A DNA stretch of 64,000 nt from Firmicutes bacterium ASF500. Its GTDB lineage: Bacteria > Bacillota > Clostridia > Oscillospirales > Oscillospiraceae. The position numbers and the translations under genes are program-made. The notes beneath the pieces were generated by a model. That model saw nothing but the letters and a program-made list of their open reading frames with translations. It was not told the origin of the DNA and searched no databases. Shown here one piece after another: positions 28,684 to 29,931 of the stretch; positions within the stretch are counted from its first letter, which is position 1, and the number at the start of each line of letters is the position of its first letter. Location of the stretch: the NCBI GenBank assembly GCA_000492175.2, contig CP097573.1, positions 2,170,001 to 2,234,000 of the forward strand, written 5' to 3'.

Positions 28684-28785
28684 TCCCCGCACACTCCTTT
28701 TTTCGGCCATAAGTCCGACTGTTTTCATCCATAGTTTAGCACTACAGGCCCGTCAAATCAATACCTTCTTGCCCCATCAAAAGAC

Positions 28786-28809
28786 AAAAAAGCCGCCCGG
28801 CCGGGCGGC
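28786..28809 (-). terminator. Intrinsic terminator for a minus-strand RNA
   Basis: The 18-base perfect palindrome GCCGCCCGGCCGGGCGGC is followed on the minus strand by TTTTTT. The nearest upstream minus-strand start signal is the consensus promoter at 29130-29158, with no minus-strand gene between, so it probably ends an antisense RNA. Confidence 0.85.
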
Positions 28810-28814
28810 AGTTA

Positions 28815-28844
28815 TTGACAAAATACGGCGTGCAGAGTTATGAT
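28815..28844 (+). promoter_or_regulatory. Promoter of the small hydrophobic peptide gene
   Basis: TTGACA (28815-28820), an 18-base spacer and TATGAT (28839-28844) give a near-consensus promoter. The predicted RNA has a leader of about 105 bases before the ATG. Confidence 0.65.
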
Positions 28845-28895
28845 ATCGATGCCAAACCGAAAGGGATGGCCAGAAGGACGCTTGCTGCATATAAG

Positions 28896-29102
28896 GCGGT
28901 CAGTCCACCGTTATTACCCCTGCGCAAAACCCAAATGGGGGGAGGTGGAAGCGGATGTGGAAAAAATGGATCTTCAAAACGGTCTGTTTTCTGGCGGGTA
29001 TCGCAATACTTATGTACCTGTCAGCCATAAATGCTTGTTGACCGCCCGGCCCCTACCCGAGCGGTCAACGGTTCTCGTTGATCATTAAGGTGGACTGACC
29101 GC
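28896..29102. repeat. 14-base perfect inverted repeat framing the peptide gene
   Basis: GCGGTCAGTCCACC (28896-28909) and GGTGGACTGACCGC (29089-29102) are perfectly complementary and frame the small gene. In its RNA they would pair the 5' leader with the 3' end. The TCCACC part can alternatively pair with GGTGGA at 28944-28949, next to the ribosome-binding site. Confidence 0.8.
28955..29041 (+). CDS. 28-residue hydrophobic peptide, candidate type I toxin
   Basis: ATG follows GGAGGTGG by seven to nine bases. The peptide has a basic, aromatic N-terminus (MWKKWIFK), a single membrane-length hydrophobic stretch (VCFLAGIAILMYLSAI) and a short NAC end. Size and layout resemble membrane-acting type I toxins, although I recognise no named family. 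A stem TTGACCGC/GCGGTCAA (29038-29068) includes the stop codon. It has its own promoter and is overlapped by a candidate antisense RNA. Expression is not proved. Confidence 0.55.
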   Translation: MWKKWIFKTVCFLAGIAILMYLSAINAC

Positions 29103-29129
29103 AAAAGCAGTAAGTGCCCTTCTGTTTTT

Positions 29130-29158
29130 ATTATACCTGCCCGCCCCTGCCTTGTCAA
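29130..29158 (-). promoter_or_regulatory. Perfect consensus promoter driving the antisense strand
   Basis: On the minus strand TTGACA, exactly 17 bases and TATAAT. No minus-strand gene follows for 440 bases, only the terminator at 28786-28809. Confidence 0.75.
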
Positions 29159-29223
29159 GACAATGAGACAGGGGATCAGGGAAATCAATTTTGCGCCCTA
29201 CACCCTACGTCCCCCGCAGGACA

Positions 29224-29352
29224 AAGCCTCCCTTGCGAAAGGGAGGGGGACCGCCGCCGAAGGCGGTGGTGGAGGGATTCCACCGGAGCACCATCGTTCA
29301 TACGGAATCCCCCCGCCGCTTCGCGGCCCTCCCCCCTTTGGCAAGGGGGGCT
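29224..29352. repeat. Intergenic hairpin repeat, GGAATCCCCC-ended family (copy 3)
   Basis: Two hairpin halves, AAGCCTCCCTTGCGAAAGGG and GGAATCCCCCCGCC...GGCAAGGGGGGCT, match copies at 6812 and 19869. No gene lies between 29159 and 29376. Confidence 0.78.
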
Positions 29353-29376
29353 CATCGCCTGCGGGCGGGACGGGGG

Positions 29377-29586
29377 TTATGGCGTATCCGTCCGGCCAGC
29401 CAGGTAGTCGATGGAGACGCCGTAAAAATCCGCGATTCTGACAGCTATCGACAGTTTAGGTTCCGCTTCCTCGTATTCGTATTTTTGATAAGCACGGGAA
29501 GAAATATTTAGTTCTTTTGCCGCAAAGGTCTGTGAAACGCCCTTCTCTTTGCGAAGCAGAACTAAGCGCTCAGAAAAAACAGACAT
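29377..29586 (-). CDS. XRE-family repressor
   Basis: The 69-residue helix-turn-helix protein reads RLVLLRKEKGVSQTFAAKEL, NISSRAYQKYEYEEAEPKLS and ends FYGVSIDYLAGRTDTP, typical of SinR-like regulators. The start MSVFSER was chosen because the longer frame lacks a ribosome-binding site. It is divergent from the 85-residue gene at 29674, and matched inverted repeats lie between them. Confidence 0.85.
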   Translation of the reverse strand: MSVFSERLVLLRKEKGVSQTFAAKELNISSRAYQKYEYEEAEPKLSIAVRIADFYGVSIDYLAGRTDTP

Positions 29587-29601
29587 TTTAACAACAGCTC
29601 C

Positions 29602-29657
29602 TTGACAACGTACTAAGATACGTATATAATGAAAATAGAAACGTACTAAAGTACGCT
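29602..29657 (+). promoter_or_regulatory. Promoter with two repressor-type inverted repeats
   Basis: TTGACA (29602-29607), 17 bases and TATAAT (29625-29630) form a perfect promoter. ACGTA-6-TACGT (29608-29623) fills the spacer and CGTAC-4-GTACG (29642-29655) lies just after the start site. Both share AACGTACTAA. They are the likely operators of the adjacent XRE protein. Confidence 0.75.
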
Positions 29658-29673
29658 GCATGGAGGAATCACT

Positions 29674-29931
29674 ATGACAACCTTAATGGATGTCCTGGCG
29701 CAATACGCAGAAGAAAATCTGGTCTCCCGCCTTTTGCTGGAGACCGGGCCTCAGTTCTCAGAGGCAGAGGTCCGGGTGGAGGAGCTGACCGCCCAGATAA
29801 AGGCGATCAGTCCCGAGGCGGAGGGCCATGTCAGGCGGCTGACCTTTGAGCAGGACACAGTCTCCATCTGCCGGGAACGGGCGTTCCTCCTGTCCGGCAT
29901 CTCCATCGGCCTGGAGCTGGGGCGGCTTTAG
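29674..29931 (+). CDS. Small conserved-looking helical protein, function unknown
   Basis: This 85-residue protein is acidic and mostly helical, ending CRERAFLLSGISIGLELGRL. I do not recognise its family with certainty. GGAGG lies seven bases before the ATG. It is driven by the strongest promoter type in the window and probably repressed by the divergent XRE protein. Its stop overlaps the convergent glycosyltransferase stop by four bases. Confidence 0.65.
   Translation: MTTLMDVLAQYAEENLVSRLLLETGPQFSEAEVRVEELTAQIKAISPEAEGHVRRLTFEQDTVSICRERAFLLSGISIGLELGRL

Follow-up and report, generated by a model that had tools for sequence, protein, structure and literature searches.

The locus at positions 28,786 to 29,158 of the stretch analysed here (64,000 nucleotides of Firmicutes bacterium ASF500, contig CP097573.1; hereafter the window) is very probably a type I toxin-antitoxin locus, that is, a gene for a short membrane peptide under antisense RNA control, and it belongs to a family for which we found no name. 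This reading had been proposed in an earlier note made from the letters of the window, which described a 28-residue peptide gene with a ribosome-binding site, a plus-strand promoter, a perfect minus-strand promoter and a minus-strand terminator ending in T6. Each of these parts is present where that note had placed it, and the predicted antisense RNA would indeed overlap the peptide gene. Comparison of many related copies lends the type I reading further support through substitutions of coding type, wobble pairs that tell the two strands apart, a near-invariant antisense promoter and the lack of any named family. Altogether, the copies make up a real and widespread family of sense-antisense peptide loci that looks built like the type I class.

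Parts of the locus and the copies compared

The peptide encoded in the window is basic and hydrophobic. The parts of the locus are as follows, the ends of the antisense RNA being placed from its -10 box (start) and from its terminator (end):

28815..28844, plus strand: promoter of the sense RNA (toxin mRNA), TTGACA-18-TATGAT, 11 of 12 consensus positions; the RNA probably starts near 28851
28871..28888, plus strand: closing stem of the sense RNA, 5' outer arm; outer pairs in the 24-copy alignment
28896..28909, plus strand: closing stem, 5' inner arm, GCGGTCAGTCCACC; wobbles sense 172, antisense 9 (117 of 139 copies)
28937..28948, plus strand: Shine-Dalgarno region (ribosome site), GGGGGGAGGTGG; 3' side of a masking hairpin in many relatives
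28955..29041, plus strand: peptide gene, 28 amino acids (aa), putative toxin, MWKKWIFKTVCFLAGIAILMYLSAINAC
29037..29069, minus strand: stop-codon hairpin, 13 pairs and a 7-nucleotide (nt) loop in the antisense RNA; putative recognition element
29089..29102, plus strand: closing stem, 3' inner arm
29107..29124, plus strand: closing stem, 3' outer arm; possible local hairpin before TTTTTATTAT; end of the sense RNA uncertain
29130..29158, minus strand: antisense promoter, TTGACA-17-TATAAT, 12 of 12 here and in 126 of 142 copies
28786..29123, minus strand: predicted antisense (antitoxin) RNA, about 338 nt, spanning the entire sense unit
28786..28809, minus strand: terminator of the antisense RNA, stem 28809-28792 followed by T6

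Because the terminator sits beyond the sense promoter, the predicted antisense RNA, running from 29123 to 28786, would cover the whole unit. Two features were absent from the list in the earlier note, namely a long-range inverted repeat (28896-28914 and 29084-29102) and the hairpin that encloses the stop codon, for which the predicted folding energy is -24.4 kcal/mol in the antisense RNA and -19.0 kcal/mol in the sense RNA. A scan for promoter sites is weak evidence when taken alone, because a 6-kb stretch holds 4 promoter-like sites against 1.7 +/- 1.4 in shuffled sequence. Chance is ruled out by the comparison among copies, in which the antisense promoter matches at least 10 of 12 consensus positions in 141 of 142, whereas the opposite strand of the same stretch reaches 10 in 5 of 142 and never more. 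The family hairpin pattern matches once in the window and in none of 100 shuffles, which is no independent test because the pattern was built partly from the window copy.

The comparison set comprises 259 loci with 234 distinct hairpin matches, 144 of them with a peptide of 22 to 40 aa behind a ribosome site. All counts are of sequences and not of events, because the matches are related by descent. In the set of 144, one copy is present twice (records L208 and L019) and one peptide is spurious (L181). The duplicate and the spurious peptide were left out of the tests of ribosome-site hairpins and fold energies, and are included in the counts of peptides, stop partners, wobbles and promoters.

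Coding-type substitution and strand-specific folds

Wobble pairs reveal which strand's fold is kept, because the complement of a G-U pair is A and C, which do not pair. In the hairpin just 3' of the gene, G-U pairs number 147 in the antisense RNA and 0 in the sense RNA; among the 108 distinct hairpins the wobbles are 111 to 0, and the antisense fold is the more stable one in 108 of 108. The closing stem that joins the mRNA ends has the opposite bias, with 172 sense to 9 antisense wobbles when the arms are anchored (the 117 of 139 copies with both anchors). Among arm pairs that are distinct and form 7 or more Watson-Crick pairs (70 in all), the wobbles are 104 to 9, and the sense fold is more stable in 59 and the antisense fold in 5. 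Since these biases run in opposite directions at one locus, they argue against a general mutation bias. A pairing score of at least 20 is reached by 130 of 139 true arm pairs, by 21 of 139 shuffled pairs and by 344 of 414 arms mispaired between copies, the last because the arm sequence itself is conserved. In addition, RNAalifold finds 41 pairs, 17 of them with changes on both sides, in alignment A2 of 24 same-genus copies; of the 26 available, the 2 whose 5' region is unrelated were left out. Taken together, two opposite RNAs appear to have been selected: a sense RNA whose ends are predicted to pair over a long range, as in aapA/IsoA, and an antisense RNA that carries the putative recognition hairpin.

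The stop codon is itself part of the post-stop hairpin, its last two letters pairing with two later bases. The search pattern left these letters and their partners free within purines and pyrimidines, and the combinations found in the 144 copies were GA-TC (74), AG-CT (63) and AA-TT (7), with 0 mismatched. All 144 peptide copies have TGA, TAG or TAA at this position while the stem partner changes along, and a peptide-less remnant (L031) has TGG. At the level of sequence, this shows that one and the same place has retained both its stop and its stem.

Substitutions in the peptide gene are of coding type, clearly so in the 28-residue copies and weakly so in the 31-residue copies. With the start codon and the last two codons excluded, the ratio of nonsynonymous to synonymous differences (pN/pS) for the 28-mers is 0.32 in frame versus 0.73 and 1.34 in the other frames (123 pairs, nucleotide distance below 0.25), and second codon positions are the least changed in both length classes. 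A hydrophobic segment (15-residue mean hydropathy above 1.6) is present in 141 of 142 peptides, and the first nine and last six residues carry a positive net charge in 140 of 142. Peptide length is 27, 28 or 31 aa in 138 of 144 copies under a start choice that preferred these lengths; only 10 copies have more than one eligible start, and the count without the preference is 137 or 129 of 144. All 24 aligned copies share the same ribosome site, GGGGAGGTG, and for other copies the collection rule demands such a site. As the type I class would require, the family thus has a short hydrophobic peptide gene under coding selection, by a weak margin in the 31-mers.

A C-terminal cysteine was considered as a conserved functional residue and rejected, as the last residue can also be Gly, Arg, Lys or Met in members found by profile, whose stem, judged by eye, still forms. 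Cysteine is last in all 144 copies because the hairpin patterns force it.

The earlier note had proposed comparing the conservation of the peptide, of both promoters and of the terminator. The antisense promoter is nearly invariant. The sense promoter scores at least 10 of 12 in 90 of 139 copies (9 of 139 on the other strand), and 91 of 137 copies have an antisense-strand terminator with a score of at least 10 upstream of the start (26 of 137 on the other strand). By sequence, the antisense promoter and the antisense-specific hairpin argue for an antisense gene that has a promoter of its own and whose RNA would be complementary to the putative toxin mRNA. For the ribosome site, a search for masking hairpins in a fixed 11-nt window did not find clearly more of them than in shuffled sequence (11 of 104 versus 5 at a score of at least 12). 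A redesigned test with free stem length, applied to the collected copies and 16 of 21 profile-found members, found 59 of 157 at 16 or more versus 9 shuffled, and masking stems of at least 12 contain 143 sense and 29 antisense wobbles. The hairpin common to many relatives has nine pairs and a four-base loop; in the window copy the score is just 9. Access to the ribosome site is predicted to be low (0.21, versus 0.28 with a shuffled leader; 77 copies).

These observations are consistent with the following mechanism. The sense promoter would yield an mRNA of about 280 nt that encodes a membrane peptide, mostly of 27, 28 or 31 residues. The ends of this mRNA would pair, and in many relatives its ribosome-binding site would lie inside a hairpin. 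The stronger opposing promoter would produce an antisense RNA over the whole unit. Near its 5' end, this RNA would fold into a stable hairpin with the complement of the stop codon in its stem and with a loop that varies between copies. We infer that this loop starts pairing with its own mRNA, and that the resulting duplex blocks translation or is cut. The peptide would be toxic, with the membrane as its putative target, and the module may have a role in addiction or stress.

Putative recognition region, peptide-less units and other explanations

Closely related copies differ most after the stop codon. Nine same-genome pairs with a coding identity of at least 0.9 have mean identities of 0.97 over the gene, 0.85 over the leader and 0.69 over the 53 nt that follow the stop; for 22 different-genome pairs the values are 0.94, 0.84 and 0.79. 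The p-value of 0.001 for this comparison of regions is indicative only, because the pairs are not independent. The tandem copies at locus L074 have a coding identity of 0.98. A likely orthologue in genome G056 has a hairpin loop that differs from that of the window and an identical adjoining spacer; this locus and those of G055 and G051 are matched to the window by sequence likeness. These differences are suggestive of an antitoxin specificity that diversifies in the post-stop region. A more specific proposal, to which we give slightly less than even chances, is that a stop codon built into the antitoxin recognition hairpin ties the evolution of the toxin gene's end to that of the antitoxin specificity, that copies in the same genome, including phage-borne ones, diversify the hairpin and do not cross-react with one another, and that orphan antitoxin units act as anti-addiction genes.

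The 90 peptide-less hairpin matches consist of 32 with an antisense promoter of at least 10, 42 that are the near-palindrome matched from the other strand, on which the promoter is found, and 16 that are neither. A few of the 32 are intact frames missed by the ribosome-site rule (L133, L155, L168, L190, L200), and many are truncated at the 5' side. Truncated units that keep the promoter and the hairpin include L011, L012 and G055. We read peptide-less units as orphan antitoxins or decayed copies, because 144 of the 234 hairpin matches carry a peptide and 42 more are the near-palindrome. One of them, in the own genome (L012:800-990), looks like a free-standing antitoxin RNA; it retains only the peptide tail, and by eye another antisense terminator lies close by.

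Several observations weigh against the type I reading. For the 31-mers, pN/pS is 0.64 in frame versus 0.67 (+1) and 1.29 (163 pairs), and the sense promoter falls below 10 in 49 of 139 copies. The strand bias of the closing stem is weaker in an unanchored scan (228 sense to 147 antisense). Activation by loss of the mRNA 3' end, in the manner of hok or aapA, is unsupported by folding: access to the ribosome site is 0.18 after removal of the 3' end, and truncation makes the site more open in 4 of 77 copies and less open in 13 of 77. Avoidance of identical loops among same-genome copies is not significant (identical in 2 of 11 versus 7 of 22 pairs, where 2 of the 11, one of them identical, involve a copy present in two records), and in a second comparison (0 of 37 versus 26 of 824) loop identity alone likewise does not tell the two groups apart. 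The 16 hairpin matches above lack both a peptide and, on either strand, an antisense promoter of at least 10, and antisense units without a peptide start exist. The earlier note had named homologous loci with a broken peptide frame and retained RNA signals as evidence against its proposal, and such loci do occur in part. In the likely orthologue of G055, an internal deletion removes an arm, the ribosome site and the peptide start while the antisense unit is kept, and several other copies likewise lack the peptide start and retain the antisense unit; at the G051 locus, the ribosome site is changed and the frame is intact. We do not take this as a refutation, because modules of this kind should give rise to orphan antitoxins and decayed copies, and most of the hairpin matches carry a peptide.

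Of the other explanations, the one that survives best is that the small membrane peptide is not toxic but serves the physiology of the cell, either as a regulator of a membrane protein or as a signal, and is kept low by the antisense RNA. The predicted nature of the toxicity, the conserved character of the peptide and the lack of an obvious partner gene in the window would suit this role, but we consider it unlikely, as the tandem, multicopy and phage-borne occurrence fits addiction-type modules better than a single cellular regulator, and so do the fast-changing antisense recognition region and the peptide-less antisense units. It is less likely still that the antisense RNA acts chiefly in trans on other genes or copies, with the cis-encoded peptide secondary. 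The truncated units with promoter and hairpin named above agree with such an action, which is opposed by the predominance of peptide-bearing copies (144, versus 32 peptide-less ones with a promoter, including the few missed intact frames) and by the differences in recognition region between closely related same-genome copies. Since trans action overlaps the type I reading and does not fully exclude it, the odds of the readings need not sum to one. Finally, a structured non-coding or mobile palindromic repeat with an incidental reading frame would account for the many copies, the inverted ends, the strong hairpin and the truncated copies without a frame, but is highly improbable in view of the invariant ribosome site, the narrow choice of peptide lengths, the coding-type substitution in the 28-mers and the stop retained in every peptide copy while its stem partner co-varies.

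Distribution and comparison with known systems

The chromosome of the strain (3.67 Mb, one contig) carries 6 intact copies of the proposed type I locus, including that of the window, with 2 copies in tandem, and 2 truncated places, L012 among them, that retain only the C-terminal tail of the peptide and the antisense half. DNA search found 6 places in it and single-peptide search 3, and profile A1, built from 27 related peptides, raised the peptide copies to 6. Within the genus, 25 of 64 genomes, own included, have DNA matches (E<=0.001; some short). In the Oscillospiraceae, where the earlier note had suggested searching for the peptide, profile A1 matches 43 of 400 genomes and 28 of 106 genera (E<=0.01), the weakest four (G103, G284, G356, G412) falling in frames longer than 300 aa and being probably due to chance. 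An order-level sample gave matches in 10 of 394 genomes (E<=0.001), in families f1 and f13 only. In a class-wide sample, the wider profile A3 (60 peptides) matched 2 of 391 genomes, namely the own genome and one inside a 573-aa frame that we take as chance, at a stricter limit (E<=0.0001) under which distant members could be missed.

The hairpin pattern occurs in at least 120 stretches of named genomes and in 48 of viral contigs, the latter not being separate evidence, as at least one record (L220) has the same length as a named-genome record (L166). Record titles among the matches listed include Oscillibacter, Lawsonibacter, Flintibacter, Pseudoflavonifractor, Flavonifractor, Colidextribacter, Agathobaculum, Butyricicoccus, Anaerotruncus, Acutalibacter, Ruminiclostridium and others, with many uncultured bins of broader rank; Colidextribacter sp. 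OB.20 and Pseudoflavonifractor sp. 60 are, to judge by their titles, isolates. Of three genera looked up, Oscillibacter and Ruminiclostridium belong to Oscillospiraceae and Agathobaculum to Butyricicoccaceae; in GTDB usage, these families and their kin form one order, Oscillospirales. The family has been seen so far only in Oscillospiraceae, Butyricicoccaceae and kin. Phage genes adjoin 2 of 4 viral copies examined (tail genes in L219, a terminase gene in L217; ten proteins scanned), and searches of named phage and plasmid collections with one query peptide each gave chance-level matches only.

Variants of the locus were also observed. L070, L071 and L292 have another stem version of the post-stop hairpin (GCTGACTGC...GCAGTCAGC), which the scan pattern misses, so that the family is larger than counted. 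L283, L284, L286 and L289, from another family of the order (f13), have shorter peptides with an arginine end, such as MRKKAFQLFVCAVILLYIFCIKAR in L289. By eye, L019:1032-1305 and L025:1420-1693 have intact frames in which an unrelated 5' region, common to both, stands where the arm is normally found, as would result from an exchange of the leader.

The neighbours of the locus in the window are a protein with Sel1 repeats, a protein without a family, a helix-turn-helix regulator, a second protein without a family and a glycosyltransferase, and they do not suggest another role for it. A palindromic repeat (29196-29365, GGGAGG...GCCGCCGAAGGCGGTGGTGGAGGGATTCC) adjoins the locus, and the own genome has 25 occurrences of its core (at most 3 mismatches; reversed control, 0). 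The helix-turn-helix gene (29377-29931, minus strand, HTH_3) is divergent from an 85-aa gene without a family, and the two are perhaps an autoregulated pair. A perfect plus-strand promoter, TTGACA-17-TATAAT, lies at 29602-29630 amid repeats of the ACGTACTAA type.

No named toxin family was recognised. Searches with three single peptides against Pfam, NCBIfam, PADLOC and PHROG gave weak matches only and no fitting family, in line with the earlier note, and 60 members gave scattered weak matches in Pfam and NCBIfam (best E 0.0047 and 0.021). Pfam includes a Hok model, and the Pfam and NCBIfam libraries include Fst/Ldr models. Between them, the 60 members matched 17 Pfam families (E<=1) and 11 NCBIfam families; Hok is absent from the former, and Fst/Ldr from both sets. 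Rfam had no match at gathering score in the window, the two weak matches within 28700-29200 (E 0.64 and 0.82) being far below it. In a literature search, mainly of open-access papers, we recognised no description of such a family in Oscillospiraceae, which does not establish priority; in the text portions available, 'type I toxin' and 'Oscillospiraceae' occurred together only in a riboswitch review.

Type I systems are hard to find because their peptides are tiny and their RNAs diverge. The present family is found in about a tenth of the sampled genomes of a group that is common in the gut, and matches no library model searched. Wobble pairs supplied strand-by-strand evidence for two functional RNAs, and the same test could screen other sense-antisense overlaps without RNA data. 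If the loop sets specificity, the family offers many natural copies with which to study how antisense RNAs discriminate between near-identical targets.

SR4 acts at the 3' region of its mRNA, Hok is a short basic-hydrophobic peptide that is longer than the members here, and the Sok promoter is strong. Fst/par of Enterococcus shares the type I peptide of about 30 residues (PMC4147584); the members here have no Fst/Ldr match, and the par RNAs converge whereas the units here overlap fully. The type I modules of Clostridioides difficile, with toxins of 34-59 aa that have no homology to other groups, share the class, the small hydrophobic toxin and the prophage association (PMC6563280). They differ in distribution, as the family here occurs in no other genome of the 391-genome class sample except for the one chance-like match. 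In Bacillus, bsrG/SR4 and txpA/RatA are likewise Firmicutes type I loci, several of them on prophages, and SR4 acts far from the translation start (PMC6563280, PMC4147584); here, the members match no named toxin family and the antisense RNA would span the whole mRNA. hok/Sok has in common a closed mRNA (PMC6733600, PMC4147584). Beside the features of Hok and of the Sok promoter given above, which are shared except for the length of the peptide, it differs in that no Hok-type Pfam match was found among the 60 members.

In architecture, the closest system is aapA/IsoA of Helicobacter. It is likewise a chromosomal multicopy family with a tiny toxin, an mRNA whose ends pair and masking hairpins at the ribosome site (PMC6733600). 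The two differ in that, here, the ribosome site is not opened in predicted folds when the 3' end is removed, and in that the antisense RNA would span the whole unit, with a hairpin that includes the stop codon.
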